From positions 1-41,832 of IMG/VR virus record IMGVR_UViG_3300028388_002814: a DNA stretch of 41,832 nucleotides. One strand, given 5' to 3'. The notes under the pieces are model-generated. The model saw only the letters and a list, made by a program, of their open reading frames with translations, had not been told where the DNA came from and did not search any database. The position numbers and the translations under genes were made by a program. Shown here piece by piece: positions 4,916-18,430 of this stretch; position 1 is the stretch's first letter, and every line of letters starts with the position of its first letter. The stretch comes from a virus.

Positions 4916-5145
4916 CGGTATTCAGGTTTGGGGGCGTTTTTAATCTGATTAACATGGCACACAACGTCTTCTTGGTTGTCTATTCCTGTTAATTGTTTTG
5001 TTTTGTACAATGCATTTTTAGCACATTCCTTCCTCTGCGCTTTACAGGCTTCATCCCATTTAATTTTGGCATATTCTTCCAACATTCTCTCTAACTTCCC
5101 GCCATCAAACATTTTTTGGCTTTGTAGATATTCCTTTGCTGTCAT
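4912..5145 (-). CDS. Hypothetical protein (77 aa) between polymerase and exonuclease genes
   Basis: A lysine- and glutamate-rich, probably helical protein with three cysteines. The start ATG overlaps the stop of the upstream zinc-ribbon gene by 4 bases, and the stop overlaps the following mini-frame, so the genes form a continuous translational chain. No domain recognised. Its place within a split polymerase cluster suggests a replication accessory role, but this is only inferred from context. Confidence 0.65.
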   Translation of the reverse strand: MTAKEYLQSQKMFDGGKLERMLEEYAKIKWDEACKAQRKECAKNALYKTKQLTGIDNQEDVVCHVNQIKNAPKPEYR

Positions 5146-7630: not shown

Positions 7631-8602
7631 TTAAATTAAATTTTGCAATGGCTCGTACGGAGTCATGCTCTTGTACCAATTGATATCGTTTTGCATTCGG
7701 AGAAAGAAATGGAGGTTGATACGGGCCCGTCCCAAGTGGGATTGGAGGTCCTCGTAAGTGTACCCATCTCGCTCAAATTGCTTTAGGATTTCATCGGTTA
7801 TCGTGTACCCCCGTCCACCCGTCCGATCACTCACTCTCCATATGGTGAAATTGCTATTGGAAATAACACGGGTATCACTGCTAAACCCCCAGTGGGGGAA
7901 GATGACTTTTCCGTACCCTGCGAACAGCCGCCACGTGGTAGAGTCGCAGGAATGCCAAGGCAGGTCTCGGATGGACGTGATGGCGGTAACGGCGAACCCG
8001 TGCGTCCGAACCTTTACGCCATTTTTATACAGGTAGTCAAACACGGAATCCATCCATGCCTTTTTGGAGGTTTGTGACATATCGTTAGCGGGAGAAATCC
8101 CAATATAGTCTGTCAGCTCTAACATCTTGTCTAACCACTTCCAATCCTCCCCTTGGTGGAATACGTGTATGGGAGTGATACCGTTGGACAGCATGATTTT
8201 CAAATTCTTCAACCCTTCCGCGGCTGCCTTGTTTATGATCTCCTTATTCTGCTGTTTGACTTCGGGGTCACGCAAGGCATTAAGCAAGTCTTTGGTTTCT
8301 CCTTTCTTACCGGGGATCACGTCCAAGTTTACCACATGAACTTCCTTGTTAGCTTCCGCAGACATTTCGATGATCTCGTGGGCCTGTTTGATGTAGGCAT
8401 CCAAATCAATCACGTCCCCTTTGTTCCAAGCGGAGAACGCCCCGGAGTCCAAGATTATTTCTCCCGGCTCCGTGGGGTTCATTTGTAACCAACGTTTGAT
8501 CTGGGAGGGGTAGGCATGAGAAACCAGTCGGCACTTAACCAACGGGGCATCTTCCTCGGGTGCCGCCCACCTCCCTGCGAAGTATAGCTTAATTGGCTCC
8601 AT
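7631..8602 (-). CDS. dpdA: DpdA-like 7-deazaguanine DNA transglycosylase
   Basis: A phage relative of tRNA-guanine transglycosylase that exchanges guanine in DNA for a 7-deazaguanine base. The catalytic region ILDSGAFSAWNKGD (about residue 50) matches the DSGAF signature. HVVNLDVIPG, GISPANDMSQ and SCDSTTWRLFAGYG are the other barrel motifs, including the second conserved Asp. Length 323 aa is typical for phage DpdA. It overlaps the QueF stop by 14 bases and lies in one unit with queF, folE and queC, so preQ1 is the expected donor base. Sequence specificity cannot be read from this window. Confidence 0.9.
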   Translation of the reverse strand: MEPIKLYFAGRWAAPEEDAPLVKCRLVSHAYPSQIKRWLQMNPTEPGEIILDSGAFSAWNKGDVIDLDAYIKQAHEIIEMSAEANKEVHVVNLDVIPGKKGETKDLLNALRDPEVKQQNKEIINKAAAEGLKNLKIMLSNGITPIHVFHQGEDWKWLDKMLELTDYIGISPANDMSQTSKKAWMDSVFDYLYKNGVKVRTHGFAVTAITSIRDLPWHSCDSTTWRLFAGYGKVIFPHWGFSSDTRVISNSNFTIWRVSDRTGGRGYTITDEILKQFERDGYTYEDLQSHLGRARINLHFFLRMQNDINWYKSMTPYEPLQNLI

Positions 8603-9554: not shown

Positions 9555-10121
9555 TTATTTCCTATCAATTAAGGCGAAAAGTTCCTGCCGTGCCGTGGCG
9601 TCCTCGTACAAGACACCTTTGACACTGGAGGTGGTCATTACGGAATTTTGCTTGCCTACACCACGGGCGCACATGCACATGTGACGGGCTTCAATAACAC
9701 AAGCAGCCCCCTTGGCATTTAGGTGGTCCATAAGGGCTGAGGTTACCTCCTCTCCAATCCGTTCTTGGATCTGTAGGCGGCGGGCATAAATGTCAAGCAG
9801 TCGTGCCAGCTTTGAAATTCCTATCACCTTTCCATCGGGTATGTAGGCCACGTGTGCCTTCCCGTAGAAAGGGAGCATGTGATGCTCACAGGTACTATAC
9901 ATTTCAATATCTCGAAGGAGAATGATTTGGTCATACGACCCTGCCTCGAAAACAGTCAAAACGTCCTCGGGCTTTTGGTTGTATCCTGCGAACAATTCCC
10001 TCCAAGACTTCACCACCCGCTTGGGCGTATCTTGGAGTCCTTCCCGCTCGGGGTCTTCCCCGATTTCATAAAGGATTTGTTTGATTAAGGCTTCACGTCC
10101 GTCTCTCATATTCTGCATCAT
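9555..10121 (-). CDS. folE: GTP cyclohydrolase I
   Basis: Opens GTP to 7,8-dihydroneopterin triphosphate, the first step to preQ0. Zinc and active-site motifs are [39 protein letters not shown] and [12 protein letters not shown]. The start is ATG 10121 ([12 protein letters not shown]), whose ATGA overlaps the queC stop. A longer upstream frame is only read-back into queC. Predicted length is 188 aa, normal for the bacterial enzyme. Confidence 0.96.
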
Positions 10122-10798
10122 ATCCATCCTTTGGCTTTGGCTTCCTCGTACCCTTTGGCACGGATAACGCTTGCGGGATTGTCTAGGCGTCCATAGCCCC
10201 AATCGTGCTTTTCATCTCGGTTGCCGTTGTAGTCCGTATGGGACAGCTCAACAACCACGTCTACGCAATTGAGTTCTTTGGCTAGACGCCACGTCTCGGC
10301 TTTGGTTAACCACATTAGGGGCGTCCAAATTTCAAGCCTGTCATCGTCCAATCCCAACGCCAGTGCAGTCCGCATTGCTTGGACGAAATTATTTCGGCAA
10401 TCTGGATAGCCGGAATAGTCCGTTTGGCATACGCCTGTCACCAAATGATGGATATCATTTTCACGGGCAAAAGAAGCGGCAATGGTAAGGAAAAGAATGT
10501 TCCGTCCCGCCGTAAAACTTGCCGGCAGATCCTCATCCAAATGGGATTCCGCAGACACGTCTTGCTCGTGGTTTACAAGGGCACCTCCAGTAAGGAGTCC
10601 TTGCACATTAAATACCTTAAATGGTACGCTTGCCCTGTCGGCTATTTTGGCTGCTTGCTCCAGTTCAACTTTGTGCTTTTGTCCGTAGTCAAAGCCTATG
10701 GCAATCACGTGATTGAATTGCGACAGAGCCCAGTGCAAACAAGTGGTGGAATCTTGCCCTCCAGAAAAGAGTACAAGAGCGGTTTCATCGGTTTTCAT
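10118..10798 (-). CDS. queC: 7-cyano-7-deazaguanine synthase (QueC), zinc site lost
   Basis: ATP-dependent conversion of carboxydeazaguanine to preQ0. The PP-loop SGGQDSTTC is intact (residues 12-20), as are [40 protein letters not shown] and the segment [12 protein letters not shown]. In most QueC proteins four cysteines near the C-terminus bind zinc (TCYNG, then CGxCxxC). Here the region reads SHTDYNG, then [17 protein letters not shown], with no cysteine. This is a real family oddity if the sequence is correct. The gene starts 9 bases after the last unit of a 32-bp repeat array. Confidence 0.94.
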
Positions 10799-10807
10799 AT
10801 GAAATAT

Positions 10808-10925
10808 TTATTTAGGTGTTATTCTTGTGATTTCTTTAGAAATTAAAGCCAAATTCGTGACGAATCCTTACTTTCTTAGGCGGTATTCGTCACGAAACTT
10901 AACTTTTTTAGGCAATTCGAGGGTG
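10808..10925 (-). repeat. 32-bp-period repeat array upstream of queC
   Basis: TATTC or AATTC cores at 10820, 10852 and 10884 are exactly 32 bp apart, and a fourth at 10914 is offset by 30. The unit at 10878 reads TTAGGCGGTATTCGTCACGA and includes the palindrome TTCGTCACGAA. The unit nearest the gene ends CCTAAATAA (minus strand) 9 bases before the queC ATG. Same motif and orientation relative to the gene as the arrays at 2986-3212 and 35495-35583. Confidence 0.85.
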
Positions 10926-10929
10926 CGAA

Positions 10930-11152
10930 TTATTTAAAGGTTAGTCCTCCTTCCTCTGTCTCTACAACCAACCGGTCAAATCTGTTGTATTTGGGGTTCT
11001 TGCTGTCCGTCAAAAGAACAGTGATTGTGGACTTGGCAAGGTCGACGTGGCCCATAGCCATTTCCACTAATTCTTTTTGACTGTAGGTCCCTTCCTCAAG
11101 GAGGGGTGTGAGGAACTCACGTACCTGTTGCGACTTGGATACGCGTTTACGG
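10930..11152 (-). pseudogene. Out-of-frame C-terminal winged-helix-like domain
   Basis: In the -1 frame relative to the acidic-protein gene an open frame ends at TAA 10930. It encodes a coherent domain with segments QQVREFLTPLLEEGTYSQKE, LAKSTITVLLTDSKNPKYN and LVVETEEGGLTFK. This looks like the wHTH-type C-terminal domain seen at the end of some phage Lys/Glu-rich proteins. It has no good start codon of its own. Adding one base to the C3 run at 11151-11153 (minus strand) would join it to the upstream protein as EAKPRKRVSKSQQ. It is thus either a frameshifted C-terminus (mutation or sequencing error) or a product of -1 frameshifting. Confidence 0.55.
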
Positions 11153-11714
11153 GCTTGGCTTCTACCGCCTCTTCCGGCTCCTCTTTCTTTTTCTTTTTCG
11201 CCTCTTTTTTCGGCTTGCTCTTTTTGGGTTCCTTTTTGGGTTCGGGTGCGGGTTCCTCTTCCTTGACCCCTGCCACGCTTAGCATGGCATCTCGAAGGTC
11301 AGAATAGGCTCCGTGTTTCGCGACGTTGACGTCCCAAAAATAATCCTCGTATTCTTCAGTCAAGGTAACAAGTTCTCGGCGGTTTGAGCAACCCTCGATA
11401 AGGGCAACCATTTCCTCGTCAGATACTTCCTCTTCCTCGGAGGCTTCCTCCTCTTCCACTTCCTCCTCAAGGATCTCTGCCTCTTCCACTTCCTCCTCCT
11501 CAGCTTCGGCATTCATAAGCCTTTCCAAAACGGAAGCAGTGTCATCCGTGAACTCATCATCGGCAGTAATCAGCCCAAGAGCTTCAGTCAACTTTGCCTC
11601 CAGTTCATCAATGGTTGTCTTTGTGGTTGCGATTGCCGGTTCCAATCCCAGCGTCTTGTTCAACTCTTTGGCGGCTGCCACTAAAAGTTGTTTAGGTGTC
11701 TTTTGCTTTGCCAT
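11067..11714 (-). CDS. Acidic/lysine-rich protein, probably frameshifted near its C-terminus
   Basis: A 215-aa protein from ATG 11714 (MAKQKTPKQLL). The upstream TTG at 11762 lies inside the promoter and is rejected. Layout: an N-terminal helical domain (residues 1-75), a Glu-rich linker, a second small domain (SDEEMVALIEGCSNRRELV to RDAMLSVAGV), then a Lys/Pro/Glu tail. The visible C-terminus YPSRNRYVSSSHPSLRKG looks unnatural, while the -1 frame gives a folded-looking domain (see 10930-11152). Function unknown; perhaps a DNA-associated protein. It has its own promoter at 11754-11783. Confidence 0.7.
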   Translation of the reverse strand: MAKQKTPKQLLVAAAKELNKTLGLEPAIATTKTTIDELEAKLTEALGLITADDEFTDDTASVLERLMNAEAEEEEVEEAEILEEEVEEEEASEEEEVSDEEMVALIEGCSNRRELVTLTEEYEDYFWDVNVAKHGAYSDLRDAMLSVAGVKEEEPAPEPKKEPKKSKPKKEAKKKKKEEPEEAVEAKPVNAYPSRNRYVSSSHPSLRKGPTVKKN

Positions 11715-11753
11715 AATAGTATTATTTGGTGATGGTTGTCTATTGGTATCTGT

Positions 11754-11783
11754 ATTATACAACAGGTACCAAGTCCTTTGAAA
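11754..11783 (-). promoter_or_regulatory. Promoter, TTTCAA-N18-TATAAT
   Basis: Minus-strand TATAAT (11759 to 11754) follows TTTCAA (11783 to 11778) with an 18-base spacer. It lies just after the queE stop codon and about 40 bases before the ATG at 11714. The spacer end reads CTGTTG next to TATAAT, as in the promoter at 3256. Confidence 0.6.
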
Positions 11784-11789
11784 TCTTTG

Positions 11790-12560
11790 TTAGACCCCCG
11801 TCGTTTGATTCCAAAGATTTATTTGTAAACGGCTGCTGAACTGAAAGCCAAATTCCTTGCACAGTTCCGCAACCAAAGGCCCGTTCCTCTCAAATTCCTC
11901 ACGGGTACTGCACCCGGGCATCAAGTACACTTTAGGAATAGAAATGCTAAAGGGGTCAATGTAGTCTCGGAACATTTCTTCCACATCGTCCTCGTGGGTT
12001 ATCACGAACTTGAAAATGGATTGCCCCAAATGAGACAGGGCGGCAAGTTGTGTGAGGGGTTCGTCTTTGATGCGACGTCGTTCGGGCATTCCGGAATTGG
12101 CGAGTTTTGGAGACACGTTGAACTGATCGATAAGACCCGTGAAATTATTCTCCAATTCTACAGTTCCATTCGTCTCAACCTCAATACGGATATGGGGGTT
12201 ACCTGCTTGGCTTTGCCCCTGCCTGCGAAGTATGTTAATGAACGGGATCAATTGGGATTGTTGCATAAGGGGCTCGCCTCCTGTGATTACCAGCTGACTG
12301 CCTCCATGAAATTCCCCATAGTAATTGTCCACAACGTCCATTGCATAGGATTGGGGATCGTACCCGTCTCCTTTCAGCCAAACTTCAATGGTATCACATC
12401 GCCACGTGGCCCCATCGTGCAGTTCCTTATCCCGTTCCGTACCGTTACCTCCGCACATGAGATTGCACCCTTGGAGCCGGAGGAAGACCGATGGTTTCCC
12501 CATGGTGTTTCCTTCTCCTTGCACACTGTGAAAAATCTCGCTAACTCGTAATTTCTTCAC
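11790..12560 (-). CDS. queE: 7-carboxy-7-deazaguanine synthase (QueE)
   Basis: Radical SAM enzyme that turns 6-carboxytetrahydropterin into 7-carboxy-7-deazaguanine. The N-terminus EIFHSVQGEGNTMGKPSVF is characteristic. The cluster region is an expanded variant, GCNLMCGGNGTERD followed by TWRCDT, rather than compact CxxxCxxC. ITGGEPLMQQ (SAM contact) and EVETNGT are also present. Length 256 aa. It follows queD with a one-base gap, so the two are co-translated. Confidence 0.95.
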   Translation of the reverse strand: MKKLRVSEIFHSVQGEGNTMGKPSVFLRLQGCNLMCGGNGTERDKELHDGATWRCDTIEVWLKGDGYDPQSYAMDVVDNYYGEFHGGSQLVITGGEPLMQQSQLIPFINILRRQGQSQAGNPHIRIEVETNGTVELENNFTGLIDQFNVSPKLANSGMPERRRIKDEPLTQLAALSHLGQSIFKFVITHEDDVEEMFRDYIDPFSISIPKVYLMPGCSTREEFERNGPLVAELCKEFGFQFSSRLQINLWNQTTGV

Positions 12561-12561
12561 T

Positions 12562-13005
12562 TCAGTTGCCTCCGTGGTATGTGGATTTATTCTTATAATC
12601 CTCGTGGACTGTGACAGAGACTACACGGACTCTCGTTCCTTCCGATTCCGCGATCCTTGTAACCAGTTCTCTGTACACCATTTCCGCAAGCCCCTCACAA
12701 GAGCAACTTGAAACGAGTACAATGTCTGCCAATCCCTCATCCCGCAATTTCAACAGCCGTGAGGCTTCCGGGTCACTGTGATTGATTAAACAGGTGTGAT
12801 CGAACATAGCTGTCAGCCATTCTTTAAACTCTTTGAACTTTCCGAAATCGTAAACGAAGCCGCACTCATCAAGCTCGTCAGCCTCCAGTGTTACCTCGAA
12901 ATCCCAGTTGTGCCCGTGGATTAAAGAACAGTGGCCCTCATGCTCGGGTTGGCGGTGTGCAAAGGGGTATCCTTTGAATATTTTGGTTATCGTATATGGT
13001 GCCAT
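12562..13005 (-). CDS. queD: 6-carboxytetrahydropterin synthase (QueD)
   Basis: Converts dihydroneopterin triphosphate to 6-carboxytetrahydropterin. Zinc ligands appear as FAHRQ near residue 16 and HGHNW near residue 30, with a catalytic Cys in GHCSLIHGH. FVYDFGKFK and MFDHTCLIN are family motifs, and the C-terminal Glu is in VTVHEDYKNKSTY. Length 147 aa. It is first in a queD-queE transcript driven from the promoter at 13094-13123. Confidence 0.94.
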   Translation of the reverse strand: MAPYTITKIFKGYPFAHRQPEHEGHCSLIHGHNWDFEVTLEADELDECGFVYDFGKFKEFKEWLTAMFDHTCLINHSDPEASRLLKLRDEGLADIVLVSSCSCEGLAEMVYRELVTRIAESEGTRVRVVSVTVHEDYKNKSTYHGGN

Positions 13006-13126: not shown

Positions 13127-14692
13127 TTACCAATAACTTGTTAGGATCGGTTGCCCCCGTTTAAGGTTTTGGAGGACGTGAACAACCCTATTGGGATTGC
13201 TCGCCCCCTCCCGCACCACAAGCTGATTGAGCCTCATAATTCCTACGTCTTTTTCCTTGCCCATAGGGTCTTGGTTGAGTCCAAACATGGCGGTGACGTG
13301 TGCATATTTTCGTTTGTCTTCACTGAAGTTGGACAGCCGTAGCAGTCCCATCTCATAGCTTTTGGCGTCTGCCTGTGTAGCCGTAACGACAAGGGCGTGA
13401 AACTCCTCAGACAAACTACGAAGCCCCTTCCAAATTTTATCTTGTTTATGGCGAAATTCGCTGGTGGGGTCGTCCAACAGGTCGGCATAGTCTATGACGA
13501 TGAGATCGGGCACGAAACCCTTCCGATACCATGCCTCCAAAATGCCTTTCATTTTTGGAATCGTCAACGTGTTATTGGGATGGGTGGACAGCATGAAAGA
13601 GCGTTTATTGTTCACGAAATATTCCTCAAATAATCGCATGGCTTCATTCTTCTGCAGAGGCGCTCCTACATCTACTTTTTGGATCCACGCACACCCCCAC
13701 GGCTTGGACTGATATTCTAGGCAGTTATGGCAGGGTCTGTACTTGGGGTTCTCCTTGTGTAGTTCTATGAGCTGTTCTTTGGTTAGCCCCTCCCGTGCCA
13801 CTTCCTCCTCGTAGGGGGCCTCCTCCCCCTCCAGTCCAAGTTGTCTTTCTCGGATTTTGAGGTTGCATGTATCCGCTTGGTTTTTGATGCAGTCCTTTAC
13901 AGGCTCCCACATTTTGCCCGCATAATGCTCCAAGTCCGATTTCTTAGCAAGTTGTATGCCAAGCCTGCGAAGTTGTTGGGCCTCGCTCATATCTCCTGCT
14001 TGGAAGAAGGCAACGTTCAATCGCTGGCGTACTGCCCGCCTAGCCATATCCAACATGAAGTAACTCTTCCCCCTCTTTTCCGGCGCCAAAAACGAGACGA
14101 AAGAATCCCGTGTTAAGAACTCGTTTAAGAATTCCCCAACCGCCCCCGGATATTCCAAAAGCGGATCCTTGTGGGTGCCAAACGCATGCTCCACACGTTT
14201 CAGTGATTGGGGATCACTGAGGAGGATTTCCGAGGTGGTACTATGTACCACGGGAGCATAGGATTGTGCCAGCCGTTCTGCCTGCTCAATTTCTCCCCCA
14301 TCCCGCAAGGTTTGAATTTGCTGTTGCCACAGCTCTAAATTCCGTTCGGAGAAGTATTTCTTTGTTCGGTCAAGCAGGTATTGAACGTTGAACTTTTTTG
14401 CCCGTTCGTACTCTTGGGAAAGGTCGGGCAGAATATCCTCCTCCAGTTCCTCGGCAACGTCCTCGGGCAGACGGCCCTTCCGCAGTTCCTCAAAGTAAAT
14501 GGCTTCCACGTCTGGGCCGGGGGCTTTTTGGTAGGTGTCATAATAGTCTAAACACCACCCCGCGACTATCCGGGCGAACTCTGTTTGGAGAAATTGTATG
14601 TCAAACACCTCCCGGATTTCGTGGAGGTATTCAGTGGAGGTAATGAGGCCGATCAGTATGTGTCGTTCTACCGGAGTTTTCTTATTCGCCAT
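13127..14692 (-). CDS. DnaB-like replicative helicase
   Basis: RecA-fold hexameric helicase for fork unwinding. An N-terminal helical domain (residues 1-160) is followed by an ATPase domain. Walker A is atypical (LAPEKRGKSYF, about residue 203) but has the G-K-S core. Walker B is LIVIDYADLL. A late motif includes VREGASNP and the C-terminal VLQNLKRG. An insertion of about 80 residues after Walker A carries cysteines (DTCNLKIRE, RPCHNCLEYQSKPWGCAW) and may bind zinc. The partner loader is at 15130-15744. Confidence 0.88.
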   Translation of the reverse strand: MANKKTPVERHILIGLITSTEYLHEIREVFDIQFLQTEFARIVAGWCLDYYDTYQKAPGPDVEAIYFEELRKGRLPEDVAEELEEDILPDLSQEYERAKKFNVQYLLDRTKKYFSERNLELWQQQIQTLRDGGEIEQAERLAQSYAPVVHSTTSEILLSDPQSLKRVEHAFGTHKDPLLEYPGAVGEFLNEFLTRDSFVSFLAPEKRGKSYFMLDMARRAVRQRLNVAFFQAGDMSEAQQLRRLGIQLAKKSDLEHYAGKMWEPVKDCIKNQADTCNLKIRERQLGLEGEEAPYEEEVAREGLTKEQLIELHKENPKYRPCHNCLEYQSKPWGCAWIQKVDVGAPLQKNEAMRLFEEYFVNNKRSFMLSTHPNNTLTIPKMKGILEAWYRKGFVPDLIVIDYADLLDDPTSEFRHKQDKIWKGLRSLSEEFHALVVTATQADAKSYEMGLLRLSNFSEDKRKYAHVTAMFGLNQDPMGKEKDVGIMRLNQLVVREGASNPNRVVHVLQNLKRGQPILTSYW

Positions 14693-15129: not shown

Positions 15130-15744
15130 CTACCCTCTCGTCCAGTCTCGTTTCTTTATTTCCGTGCAGCAACGCACAATGCGGGAGGATATCCGTTCAT
15201 CTCCCAAAAATTCTGTCAGTCCTTCCAAGCTGTGATTGGAGGTGTAGATGGTGGGTTTCATTTTCCTGTACCTCCCATCCACGATCAGGTACAGGCATTC
15301 CAGCAACCAGTCCGTAGGCTTGCCCATTCCGATTTCATCCATCACCAAAAGGTCGGCCTCCAAACAAGCCCCCATCAACTCCCTCTCGGATAAGGGGTTG
15401 CCCGGCTCCCAGGATTGCTTGATTTGGCTCAGCAGGTGGGGGTCGTTTTGGAACATGACTCCCTTGTGGGCGCCTAGGTTCTTTTCAAAAAACTGCTGGC
15501 GAACATAGGCTTGGCAGATTTGGGAAGCCATAATGGTTTTGCCTGTGCTTAGATCCCCGTAAATGAAAAACACCTCTCCTGTGTCTATGTTAGGCAAGGG
15601 AATGTCATCGGGTAGGGGGATCTCCCGCAGGACCTGAAAGATGCGAGTGTTGGTTCGGAACATGCGGCGGAGGATATTCAGCTTTCGCCGCTCCCATTGC
15701 TCCTGGGTAGGTTCCCAAGGAATGTCTTCCTCAATTTCGTTCAT
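15130..15744 (-). CDS. DnaC-like helicase loader ATPase
   Basis: AAA+ protein that would load the DnaB-like helicase at the origin. Walker A is IYGDLSTGKT (about residues 82-91), Walker B is LLVMDEIGMGK, and sensor-1-like TIYTSNHS is followed by the arginine region RISSRIVRCC. Length 204 aa is short but near DnaC/IstB loaders. It is preceded by the O-like initiator and an FWxxYP protein, an order like lambda O-P. The leader is CCAACCACACCACC-ATG. Confidence 0.88.
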   Translation of the reverse strand: MNEIEEDIPWEPTQEQWERRKLNILRRMFRTNTRIFQVLREIPLPDDIPLPNIDTGEVFFIYGDLSTGKTIMASQICQAYVRQQFFEKNLGAHKGVMFQNDPHLLSQIKQSWEPGNPLSERELMGACLEADLLVMDEIGMGKPTDWLLECLYLIVDGRYRKMKPTIYTSNHSLEGLTEFLGDERISSRIVRCCTEIKKRDWTRG

Positions 15745-15758
15745 GGTGGTGTGGTTGG

Positions 15759-16136
15759 TTAGTATTCGATTCGTTTCTTGTCACGTTCTTCCTTCATGCG
15801 TTCTAGGTATCCGTCAACGTGGCCGGATTTGACTTGGCCGTTTGACTTGGTGAATTCTTTAGGGTGAAATTCTTTGTTCCAACGTTCTTGGTTGAGCCAA
15901 GTTGACATCAGTGGAATGAATTTTGGGTCCTCCCATTGGACTGTCTTCTTGTGCGTTTCTAGGGACTCCATAACCTTAGGGAATAGGTGGCGGCACTTGG
16001 TGGGCGTGTCAAAAATGGCAAGCCACTTAGACTTGGCTGAGGACTTGGTAACTTTCCTACCAGTGGGATAGGCTTTCCAAAATTCCTCAAACTGTGAAAG
16101 TGCCAATTCCTGTGTAGTGGGTACTATGCTCCTCAT
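15759..16136 (-). CDS. Replication-associated protein with FW-x-x-YP motif
   Basis: A 125-aa protein with FEEFWKAYPTGRKVTKSSAKSKW near residue 17, the pattern found in the C-terminal part of phage replisome organisers and DnaT/DnaD-type proteins. A second segment, FIPLMSTWLNQERWN, is also typical of that region. It overlaps the end of the initiator gene by 50 bases. Together the two genes may be a split initiator: winged helix here, loader-binding part there. Confidence 0.7.
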   Translation of the reverse strand: MRSIVPTTQELALSQFEEFWKAYPTGRKVTKSSAKSKWLAIFDTPTKCRHLFPKVMESLETHKKTVQWEDPKFIPLMSTWLNQERWNKEFHPKEFTKSNGQVKSGHVDGYLERMKEERDKKRIEY

Positions 16137-16653
16137 GCTTATGCTTTTGCTCTCTTGTAGAATTCTTTAAATGCGCACTTAAAGAATTCTTTAAAGGCGC
16201 ACTTAAAGGTTTCTTTAAATGCGACTTTTGATTGGTTGCAACTGATTCCTGGTTGGTTTTAGTTGGTTTCGCCGTTTTGCTTCTCATTTTGGCAATTTGG
16301 CGGTCCTGCTCCTCAATAGCTTCCACCAGCGTTTGCCTATGGTGTTCTAGGTACTGCCTATTGACACGGAGTTGGCGCCTTTGCCCGTTTTGGGTTTTGG
16401 TGTATTCCGCCTTTAAAAAATCCAATTTGATTAGGCGGTTGACAGATTTAGAAATGGAAACAAATGACCGGTTTAATTTGATACCAAGGTACTTATTGGA
16501 GGCCCAACAGCCTCGGGTGGTGTGCTCCAAATTTGACACCAATCCAAACACGTATCCATCCAGGTCGTTGGTGTCCGGGTGGAGGAGAATTTCTGCAGGA
16601 ATGAAAAGCCCGCTCATCCCCATTTGCTGAAACTTGTCGTCATTTTTGTCCAT
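16087..16653 (-). CDS. Lambda O-like replication initiator with internal iterons
   Basis: A 188-aa protein from ATG 16653 (MDKNDDKFQQMG). An upstream ATG at 16698 lies inside the terminator hairpin and is rejected. Residues about 12-90 form a winged helix: LFIPAEILLHPDTNDLDGYV, RGCWASNKYLGIKLNRSF, SVNRLIKLDFLKAEYTK. This is the usual N-terminal DNA-binding domain of phage initiators. The C-terminal part has an 8-residue repeat (LSAPLKNS, LSAHLKNS) encoded by 24-bp DNA repeats. The lambda analogy (origin inside gene O) suggests self-recognition of these repeats. Expression is probably controlled by the attenuator-like leader upstream. Confidence 0.75.
   Translation of the reverse strand: MDKNDDKFQQMGMSGLFIPAEILLHPDTNDLDGYVFGLVSNLEHTTRGCWASNKYLGIKLNRSFVSISKSVNRLIKLDFLKAEYTKTQNGQRRQLRVNRQYLEHHRQTLVEAIEEQDRQIAKMRSKTAKPTKTNQESVATNQKSHLKKPLSAPLKNSLSAHLKNSTREQKHKHEEHSTHYTGIGTFTV
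16164..16235. repeat. 24-bp iterons, candidate replication origin
   Basis: Three tandem 24-bp units start at 16164, 16188 and 16212. Units 1 and 2 contain CTTTAA-N8-TTAAAG inverted repeats around GCGCAC; unit 3 is degenerate in its second half. They lie inside the gene for a winged-helix initiator, just like lambda ori within O. Conservation at the base level is high, though the 24-bp length also equals eight codons, so a protein-level repeat is an alternative. Confidence 0.6.
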
Positions 16654-16673
16654 AGGGGGTTTGTTTGGAGTTG

Positions 16674-16730
16674 AAAATAAAAAAGGCCCGCCGCCCAAGC
16701 CACAAAACTAACTTGGAACGACAGGCCTTT
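16674..16730 (-). terminator. Rho-independent terminator upstream of the initiator gene
   Basis: Minus-strand hairpin: AAAGGCCTGTCGTTCCAAG pairs with CTTGGGCGGCGGGCCTTT with a single bulge and several G-U pairs (18 base pairs), loop of 12. It is followed by T6 and then ATTTTC. It would end the transcript from 16899 before the initiator ATG unless read through. Confidence 0.8.
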
Positions 16731-16892
16731 ACGTTTCTCCGTTTCGAGGGGAGTTGTACGTGTGAAGATCTACGGGGTACACCATTGCAGGTGTATTTTG
16801 TATCCCGCCCCGTTCGGCTACCTACCACATAGGAACTCGTCAAAAATACAATTTCCTCGAAACGTAGACAACGGAAAAAACCCGCCGCCTGT
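16675..16892 (-). ncRNA. Structured leader RNA or small RNA with attenuator-like fold
   Basis: A promoter at 16899 should start transcription near 16892, and a strong terminator hairpin ends at 16674, about 30 bases before the initiator ATG. Between them, base pairing is extensive. CGTTTCGAGG (16865 to 16856) is perfectly complementary to CCTCGAAACG (16748 to 16739). ACGGGG pairs with CCCCGT around a TACACC/GGTGTA hairpin (about 16772-16813). The 5' segment containing GGCGGCGGG (about 16879-16887) repeats the 3' arm of the terminator, so it could compete for the terminator's other arm. This fits a riboswitch/attenuator or a stand-alone small RNA. No known RNA family is recognised. Confidence 0.55.
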
Positions 16893-16898
16893 GATGTT

Positions 16899-16928
16899 AT
16901 TATACGAAGGCGTTTGAAGTTCATGAAA
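16899..16928 (-). promoter_or_regulatory. Promoter, TTTCAT-N18-TATAAT
   Basis: Minus-strand TATAAT (16904 to 16899) follows TTTCAT (16928 to 16923) with an 18-base spacer, one mismatch to the TTTCAA element of the three other promoters. It lies just after the primase stop and would drive the structured leader and initiator operon. Confidence 0.5.
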
Positions 16929-16933
16929 AAATT

Positions 16934-17830
16934 TCAAAATATTTTTCGTATCAGCCGGCGGGCTTGTTTGGGTGTCAGGTCTCCAGGGTCAGAGGGCAGG
17001 TCTAAAAGAACTCCTTCCACGTATCGTTCACGGAGTTCTGCCATGAGCTTTTTGGCTTGGAGTTGGGCTTGGGGTTCCGGGTCAAAGGCAATAAGAACCC
17101 GATCAAAGTTCTTGGCAATGTGGCGGAGTTGCCTCCGTGTAAAGTCTATGCCAAACGTGGCAAAAGCTACAGGCCCAAATCGCCAGGCGTCTGTAATGCC
17201 TTCCACACAGATTCCCACCCGTTGCCACTCCTCCTGTTTTCCGTACAAGATGTCTTGGTGGTTAATGAGTTCACGGTCCTTGGGACAGGCGAGATATTTG
17301 ATCGGGTGCTTGCCGGTCACATCACGGGCCTGGAAACTCACTTGCTCCCCTTCCCAAAAGATCGGGGCTACGATTCTGTGCTTGTAGTCTATGTGGTCGA
17401 GTTTGGCTATAGGTCCCGTTCCTTGCACGCCCCACACCTCCGCCAATTGGTCGGGGTCAAACTTGCGTTTTTGCAGGTACCTCTTGTGGCGGGAATTGAG
17501 GGGCATTGTACCCGTGGGCAGTTTGTGTGCTTTGGTGCGAGGCTTCCGCTTTACTTCCGTTGGGGTGGGGGCGGCAATAGGAACCTCATATTTCGTAAGG
17601 ATGGGTCCTAACTTCCGCTCATCTATTCCCAGTATCTTCCCTAAGGCTTGCCGCAGTGGATGGGCTCCGCATCGCCAGCAGTTTGTGGCGCCGGAATCCG
17701 CGATCCCTAAATGCTTAGAATGGTCGGCACAGAAAGGGCATCGTACATTAGTCCACCCATCCCGGTAATTCCCATCACCGGGTTGGGCGACCGGTACTCC
17801 ATAGTCGCGAAACAGTCGTGCAACGTCCAT
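16934..17830 (-). CDS. DNA primase (zinc-binding and TOPRIM domains)
   Basis: Makes RNA primers. The N-terminal zinc domain has VRCPFCADHSKHLGI and ATNCWRCGAHP (residues about 30-58). The RNA-polymerase-like core includes HKRYLQKRKFDPDQL and HRIVAPIFWEGEQVSFQARD. The TOPRIM region has GICVEGITDAW (Glu) and VLIAFDPEPQAQ, where a usual DxD is FDPEP. At 298 aa it is short, with no helicase domain, fitting the separate helicase at 13127. It overlaps the sigma-like gene at TGATG. Confidence 0.85.
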   Translation of the reverse strand: MDVARLFRDYGVPVAQPGDGNYRDGWTNVRCPFCADHSKHLGIADSGATNCWRCGAHPLRQALGKILGIDERKLGPILTKYEVPIAAPTPTEVKRKPRTKAHKLPTGTMPLNSRHKRYLQKRKFDPDQLAEVWGVQGTGPIAKLDHIDYKHRIVAPIFWEGEQVSFQARDVTGKHPIKYLACPKDRELINHQDILYGKQEEWQRVGICVEGITDAWRFGPVAFATFGIDFTRRQLRHIAKNFDRVLIAFDPEPQAQLQAKKLMAELRERYVEGVLLDLPSDPGDLTPKQARRLIRKIF

Positions 17831-18321
17831 CAGACGAGCGCTTTCAGATCGCGGAATGCTTGTTCAATATCCAAGTGCAACCACCCCCGATCGCGCAACT
17901 CCTCCCGAAGGCGAGCCTTTACAGGTCCACAGCCTTTGAAATTTGGAGTCTGCGAAAGGAAACGGTCGGGATCCTCCAACACTATGGCCGCGATCTCTTT
18001 GTACTCTTTCGGCCAAGATGTCGCGTATTCTGCAAGGTCGAAATCCTCTTTCAGTTCTTCCTTTGGATGGAGGTAGGATGGAAGGGATTCATAGAGGGAC
18101 GTATTTTGGGAGAAACGTGTCTCCTGCTTGCAGAAATTAATGAGGTGATTTTTCATGCAGGTGTAGGCATACGTGGTCAGCTTTACCCCCTTGTCTTTTT
18201 GGAAAGAACGCTCGGCGGAGAGGTATGCTAACCGAGCCTCGCAAAACAGCTCATCGTAATCTATTCCTGTGGTGTTTTGAAAGGTGTGTGCTAGGTGGTG
18301 GATTAGGTTAGAGTTTTCCAT
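17830..18321 (-). CDS. Sigma-70-like protein (region 2)
   Basis: A 163-aa protein with a sigma region 2 pattern: IDYDELFCEARLAYLSAERS, then KGVKLTTYAYTCMKNHLINF, the core-binding and -10-recognition helices. A C-terminal segment, GPVKARLREELRDRGW, resembles a short helical domain seen in phage sigma-like proteins rather than a classical region 4. It may direct host RNA polymerase to phage promoters. The leader is CTCACACCCACACCACA-ATG without a Shine-Dalgarno sequence. Confidence 0.75.
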   Translation of the reverse strand: MENSNLIHHLAHTFQNTTGIDYDELFCEARLAYLSAERSFQKDKGVKLTTYAYTCMKNHLINFCKQETRFSQNTSLYESLPSYLHPKEELKEDFDLAEYATSWPKEYKEIAAIVLEDPDRFLSQTPNFKGCGPVKARLREELRDRGWLHLDIEQAFRDLKALV

Positions 18322-18350
18322 TGTGGTGTGGGTGTGAGATTTAAGATTGT

Positions 18351-18398
18351 AAGAGGAGGAAGTTAGTAAAACTGCTTTAAAAAATCCTCCTCTTTTTT
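18351..18398. terminator. 10-bp inverted repeat with T-run, upstream of the sigma-like gene
   Basis: AAGAGGAGGA (18351-18360) is perfectly complementary to TCCTCCTCTT (18385-18394), which is followed by T's on the plus strand to 18398. As a terminator it works best for rightward RNA. On leftward RNA it places a stable hairpin about 30 bases before the sigma-like start codon. Direction of action unclear. Confidence 0.5.
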
Positions 18399-18430
18399 AA
18401 GAAATCTAAGTGGGGTTCATGTACGTGAAA

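Follow-up and report, generated by a model that had tools for sequence, protein, structure and literature searches.

A terminator-like leader hairpin ahead of a phage replication initiator gene and a putative class of kissing-loop leader RNAs in related phages

The window analyzed here, a full IMG/VR virus record of 41,832 bases, carries a strong leader terminator before a replication initiator gene, an element that is real and ordinary in kind; a switch in the window is unproven. We interpret the stretch between the primase and initiator genes as a 5′ leader preceding the initiator-helicase-loader section of the phage replication operon, and its last hairpin, T2, as a transcription attenuator with an unspecified regulator, a reading to which we give an even chance. 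That the terminator-like hairpin directly before the initiator is a real attenuating element is very likely, because the stretch from T2 to the initiator ATG showed no promoter and because a sense terminator recurs at this junction in 57 of 111 loci, compared to 35 of 111 for an antisense one. In many distantly related phages, the same position is occupied by what looks like an apparently undescribed class of leader RNAs.

RESULTS

Genome context

All features of the leader lie on the minus strand, the leader RNA corresponding to positions 16892 to 16675. The genes around it follow one another on that strand in the order sigma-70-region-2 protein, primase, leader, O-like initiator, second initiator-like protein, DnaC-like loader, and DnaB-like helicase:

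17830-18321, minus strand, sigma-70 region 2 protein, directly upstream of the primase
16934-17830, minus strand, primase gene, upstream of the leader (PHROG 47 DNA primase, E 2.5e-34)
16087-16653, minus strand, O-like replication initiator gene, downstream of T2 (PHROG 2880, E 7.7e-8)
15759-16136, minus strand, second initiator-like protein
15130-15744, minus strand, DnaC-like loader
13127-14692, minus strand, DnaB-like helicase

An earlier note on this DNA had named the gene after the leader a replication initiator, and its resemblance to O-like initiators bears this out (besides PHROG 2880, it matches PHROG 678 replication initiation O-like at E 2e-5). The primase also matches Pfam DNAG_N, at an E value of 6.9e-5 that is under Pfam's gathering score. 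The initiator ATG is at 16653; a Shine-Dalgarno-like sequence is absent there, as it is for most of 30 genes inspected. Three 24-bp direct repeats within the initiator gene (16149 to 16223) are an iteron-like origin candidate. By eye, small ORFs similar to the sigma-70-region-2 protein seem to precede the primase in two related loci as well (L005 and L007).

The leader RNA and its parts

The leader folds with a minimum free energy of −89.3 kcal/mol (z −6.23), a value equaled by none of 200 dinucleotide shuffles, in agreement with the earlier claim of about 190 bases of strongly paired RNA. Its parts are as follows:

16899-16904, minus strand, TATAAT, candidate −10 hexamer of a leader promoter with a weak −35 (pattern position)
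16875-16965, minus strand, T1, second terminator-like hairpin (fold z −5.0, with 0 of 300 shuffles as good, for a stretch picked after its inverted repeat had been seen)
16866-16890, minus strand, H1, 5′ hairpin containing GGCGGCGGG (z −4.9 and prefix folds)
16740-16864, minus strand, P2, branched domain whose closing helix is a perfect 10-bp CGUUUCGAGG/CCUCGAAACG pairing (MFE fold, z −2.7)
16679-16730, minus strand, T2, leader terminator hairpin (16730 to 16682) with the UUUUUU tail that follows it (z −7.1)

Among 88 terminator-like candidates on both strands of the window, T2 ranks first, at −31.6 kcal/mol against −21.8 for the next, and its U-run ends about 25 nt ahead of the initiator ATG; the terminator that had been placed before the initiator is thus confirmed as a terminator-like hairpin. 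In T1, the 5′ arm is the 3′ end of the primase gene (AAGCCCGCCG) and the 3′ arm is CGGCGGGUU plus a U-run. The T1 pairing spans the primase 3′ end and GGCGGCGGGUUUUUU, and the −10 hexamer sits in its loop. An 18-codon ORF, MVYPVDLHTYNSPRNGET (16729 to 16785, minus strand), has a stop codon that overlaps the first bases of the T2 5′ arm and is a possible leader peptide. As far as computation from the sequence goes, these parts, their order, their exceptional stability, the recurrence of the sense terminator in relatives, and the loop complementarity described below for these relatives are established.

The plus strand of the leader region also folds well (z −3.62), and P2 folded as RNA does somewhat better on that strand (z −3.6) than on the minus strand (z −2.7). 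This, together with the position adjoining the initiator, would fit a structure acting as DNA, i.e., as a replication origin or primosome site, rather than as RNA. We consider this very improbable, as the U-run and the strongest hairpin indicate a minus-strand RNA and the 24-bp repeats in the initiator gene make a better origin candidate.

A 94-amino-acid ORF spans the leader. Its codon score is 0.03, compared to a minimum of 0.039 among 125 real 95-codon segments, while spurious ORFs reach 0.219, and no homologues were found in Pfam, PHROGs, or the collected relative loci. A protein encoded across the leader was rejected on the score and the lack of homologues, and the ORF appears to be noncoding.

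Promoters and the proposed mechanism

Of the leader promoter described in the earlier note, the perfect TATAAT at 16904 to 16899 stands, but a consensus scan of 15700 to 18400, restricted to sigma-70-type sites, yielded nothing at 9 of 12 matches. With the same scope, no plus-strand (antisense) sigma-70-type promoter reached the scan threshold. As the search gave no promoter downstream of T2 and ahead of the ATG, initiator transcripts from the promoters that were found must cross T2.

In the proposed mechanism, RNA polymerase that starts at the local promoter or continues out of the primase gene would transcribe the folded leader with H1 and P2, and T2 would stop a large share of transcription about 25 nt before the initiator ATG. 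The initiator and the genes following it would then be made solely from transcripts that read through T2. Termination at T2 in the cell and regulated read-through are both inferences.

The roughly 215-nt leader ended at T2 could instead act in trans, or be targeted by an RNA that does, limiting replication or superinfecting phages much as the P4 CI RNA or the antisense attenuation of plasmid rep genes does. The controlled gene would be the initiator, as in pIP501 repR, where an antisense RNA makes transcription of the leader end prematurely (PMC4981023); the plus strand, moreover, folds well (z −3.6). The absence of a plus-strand sigma-70-type promoter at the scan threshold and of a second leader copy in the record argues against this possibility, which we regard as improbable.

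The repeated segment and strand exchange

Counting both strands, GGCGGCGGG has three copies in the window, two of which lie in the leader, on the same strand and 194 nt apart. The 5′ segment had been described as a copy of the T2 3′ arm able to pair with the T2 5′ arm. The repeat is real, but the pairing is just marginally above chance (P 0.02 to 0.12). The pairing energy of the first 30 nt with the T2 5′ arm, −17.3, is equaled or bettered by 51 of 2767 minus-strand 30-mers, 47 of 2763 plus-strand 30-mers, and 47 of 2000 shuffles, and a test against the whole upstream leader gave P = 0.12.

The two mutually exclusive folds said to result are likewise sustained in part. In prefix folding, the 5′ segment on the T2 5′ arm is the predicted optimum only at 180 to 200 nt transcribed, with the T2 3′ arm still untranscribed; by 210 nt, T2 and H1 become favored, and the best fold with the T2 3′ arm blocked is at −70.8 versus −89.3 when free, a difference of 18.5 kcal/mol. 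Duplex energies are −15.1 for the 5′ segment with the T2 5′ arm and −14.0 with the H1 3′ arm. The segment also closes T1 with the primase 3′ end, and therefore three partners compete for it.

The 5′ GGCGGCGGG could accordingly be an antiterminator strand on the T2 5′ arm, with a ligand, protein, or RNA selecting between that fold and T2. The location of two of the three copies in the leader, the optimum at 180 to 200 nt, and the balanced duplex energies speak for such a switch. Against it are the marginal P values just given, the 18.5 kcal/mol advantage of the free fold, the lack of a match to any known aptamer in the leader (Rfam), and the behavior of the relatives described below, in which upstream contacts at P ≤ 0.05 involve the hairpin middle in 18 of 52 cases, the 5′ arm in 4 of 52, which is chance level, and the 3′ arm in 1 of 52. 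We consider a switch of this kind unlikely, and the arm exchange of the earlier note is not upheld by these figures; the case for switching through GGCGGCGGG is suggestive but weak.

The earlier idea of a ligand or preQ1 sensor found no backing either. No Rfam family reached the gathering score in the window, and a relaxed scan of 16600 to 17000 returned three chance-level matches only, none of them a riboswitch. For lack of an Rfam match, preQ1 and other known riboswitches were rejected as candidates. A deazaguanine (preQ0-type) gene set, comprising GTP cyclohydrolase and QueC-like, QueE-like, and QueD-like genes, is located at 9555 to 13005 on the minus strand.

The primase-initiator junction in related phages

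Megablast of positions 5000 to 26000 against phage records gave no match. Megablast, exact 23-mer, and sensitive blastn searches of phage records and viral contigs gave no leader homologue, and the window's own record had no second copy. The nearest primases found were 50% identical. Primase-based searches gave 5, 80, 13, and 80 loci, and an initiator search gave 6; the 13 loci, obtained from genome contigs scanned for named hosts, were all in metagenome-assembled genomes. Removal at ≥90% protein identity reduced 181 loci with a complete primase to 111, the window included.

Scored in noncoding gaps at ≤110 nt from a following ORF of ≥80 amino acids, a sense terminator-like hairpin lies upstream of the next gene in 57 of these 111 nonredundant loci and an antisense one in 35; by the same criteria, 54 relatives have no such terminator, and the window's T2 falls outside the 57 due to masking by the 94-amino-acid ORF. 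Loci retrieved with window-like initiators were mostly without a leader (30 inspected), several having almost no gap.

A few other elements were seen in the collected loci. By eye, the primase-initiator gap of L009 (4715 to 4950) contains three pairs of complementary segments that interleave, with a U-run at the end of the outer pair, and an SNF2-type helicase ORF in L006 (2115 to 4595) is apparently interrupted by an intein. Two phage contigs have Rfam matches, L046 to a permuted tmRNA (7745 to 8032, E 4.7e-12) and L077 to a twister-sister ribozyme (1076 to 1146, E 1.3e-7).

Loop-loop complementarity in the relatives' leaders

In a first, noisy kissing survey, P was ≤0.05 in 11 of 52 gaps after the primase versus 4 of 47 control gaps. 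Among 64 junction hairpins, the apical loop was complementary to the upstream 200 nt in 27 at P ≤ 0.05 (3.2 expected) and in 14 at P ≤ 0.01 (0.6 expected). The corresponding numbers for control terminators elsewhere in the same loci were 47 and 14 of 1205, the controls being hairpins of −12 kcal/mol or better taken without a position rule and the 64 being of −8 or better, with 18 of 52 in the −12 subset. When each loop was matched against the upstream sequences of other loci, its own was preferred in 32 of 64 cases at the 5% level (3.2 expected; binomial p 9e-25).

Choosing from the 64 by P ≤ 0.15 and a distance of 12 to 75 left 37 kissing pairs with 34 distinct sequences, a diversity that is conditional on this filter. 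A stem of ≥5 pairs closes the partner in 19 of the 37, compared to 246 of 1133 random stretches (p 1.6e-4). The upstream hairpin is often of the form TATGA-loop-TCATA or similar, with an ATG in the 5′ arm (leaders L019, L030, L063, L068, L081, and L140), i.e., a possible leader peptide. In three loci, hairpin loops are complementary to stretches that overlap the Shine-Dalgarno region (CTGCTA/TAGCAG before GAGG, and similar; L021, 5351 to 5400; L036, 4049 to 4105; L041, 5335 to 5390), which may represent a kissing leader acting on translation.

One subfamily, R1, has a GGAGUA/GAAAC internal loop in the terminator, which we take to resemble the loop-E motif. A first motif pattern was misspecified and gave one match, L093, found to be a member; a second gave 14 stretches, with L094, L098, L102, L104, L105, and L106 dropped as chance matches by sequence context. 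Aligned, 15 R1 sequences have 93.8% of cells paired, a percentage biased upward by the hand-picking of these stretches as hairpins, and a covariation score of 0.873 versus 0.233 in shuffles. L090, misplaced by MAFFT, was excluded from alignment A4.

The R1 covariance model carries no information on the upstream partner. Beyond its training set, R1 members were L135, L063 (also L182 and L177), L081, L039 (also L164), L149 (at E 0.57 in the model search), L017 (also L125), and L141. All seven of these distinct held-out leaders have an upstream 6- to 7-nt loop partner (P 0.033, 0.035, 0.059, 0.018, 0.003, 0.006, and 0.127), L039 and L081 being held out of the model rather than unseen, as they had already been noticed by eye or in surveys. 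Matches in L062 and L064 were dropped as false, having no convincing partner (P 0.135) and being judged to lie within coding sequence. Between L068 and L135, whose leaders are nearly identical, the kissing loops have changed in a compensatory way, from AGGCGG/CCGCCT to AGTCGG/CCGACT, as has the inner stem. No Rfam match was found at the leaders of the 16 relative loci scanned, two matches there falling elsewhere.

The loop sequences of the relatives thus change while their complementarity persists, which looks like the mark of an apparently undescribed class of kissing-loop leader RNAs. In these leaders, a small hairpin farther upstream probably controls the terminator by kissing its apical loop; we think that this hairpin docks there and alters terminator efficiency in cis.

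The recurrence at the junction and the conserved loop pairing also bear on a simpler explanation for the window, namely that transcription from primase to initiator is damped, without regulation, by T1 and T2 acting as plain constitutive terminators, the folding of H1 and P2 being incidental. Both are simple strong hairpins with U-runs, and terminators are common in phage genomes, as illustrated by the 1205 control hairpins elsewhere in the loci. However, the operon gene that T2 directly precedes showed no other promoter, and the pattern in the relatives suggests a controlled element. We find unregulated termination rather unlikely and prefer to read T2 as an attenuator.

The window leader and the kissing-loop class

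Like the relatives' leaders, that of the window lies between primase and initiator, with everything on the minus strand, and ends in a terminator hairpin about 25 nt before the ATG. In a beyond-chance test, its terminator loop was not complementary to an upstream loop (P 0.17 and 0.40; mid-hairpin P 0.75). A P of 0.059 was the best for any loop-loop pair of the leader, but this pair is P2's own closing helix and was rejected as a kissing loop. R1 had no match in the window leader, its best match in the window lying elsewhere at E 0.77, and none in the search of the record. Because loop complementarity fails and the leader has no R1 match, we did not file the window in the kissing-loop class. 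Its leader may work like that class through another contact; on weak support, this may be a GGCGGCGGG exchange among the primase end (T1), H1, and the T2 5′ arm, in place of the loop kiss.

DISCUSSION

Transcription attenuation controlled by antisense RNA is known from the initiator gene of plasmid pT181, and in phage P4 the CI RNA controls the alpha replication gene. The window resembles the P4 case in having a phage replication gene with a leader RNA, internal complementary segments, and predicted premature termination, a likeness by description; it differs in that no CI-like small RNA or duplicated target was identified in it. It also differs from the pIP501/pT181 type, no antisense promoter having been detected for the window in the sigma-70-type scan. 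Loop-loop contacts reportedly matter in pIP501. In having a leader terminator before a replication initiator whose level is set by premature termination, pIP501 repR is similar (PMC4981023), whereas its partner is a separate antisense RNA, and in the relatives terminator and partner loop belong to one strand and one transcript. Extrachromosomal mycobacterial prophages have RNA-based replication systems in which an RNA replaces the RepA protein as initiator, according to PMC7157519; they share with the window a noncoding RNA adjoining phage replication functions, but the window RNA sits upstream of a protein initiator gene and does not replace it.

The window leader also has the layout of riboswitches and T-box/attenuator leaders, i.e., a structured 5′ leader and then a terminator directly upstream of the gene, and differs from them in that neither it nor the 16 relative loci scanned had an Rfam match at the leader. 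Riboswitch aptamers are conserved in sequence, unlike the contacting loops of the relatives, which vary. We did not find such a kissing-loop leader described in the open literature, a scope that leaves most subscription journals outside, so that absence from print is not established; in a structured-RNA survey of human microbiomes (PMC8040213), the words "replication" and "kissing" are absent from the main text.

Since the loops diversify and complementarity is kept, each phage's leader would recognize itself. The same contact is possible between two leader molecules, and the RNA could therefore report phage copy number and gate initiator expression, although a trans contact serving as a copy-number sensor is speculation. 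A wider picture would be that of an undescribed class at this junction in a large group of uncultivated phages, in which a 5′ hairpin loop kisses the loop of the initiator-proximal terminator and self-recognizing leaders could sense copy number or superinfection, with the window as a divergent version using GGCGGCGGG strand exchange (T1, H1, and T2). We offer this as a possible but doubtful account.

The window itself, with its strong leader terminator and an unproven switch, is of smaller value; the surprising part is the kissing-loop leader class of its relatives at the same place. As the two loops can be disrupted or exchanged through point mutations, the idea is testable with reporters, and the diversity of the loops represents many candidate orthogonal terminator switches. 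If an RNA contact that the leader itself encodes indeed controls these terminators, the phages would set the amount of their initiator without a protein, in a manner comparable to plasmid copy-number control minus the separate antisense RNA.
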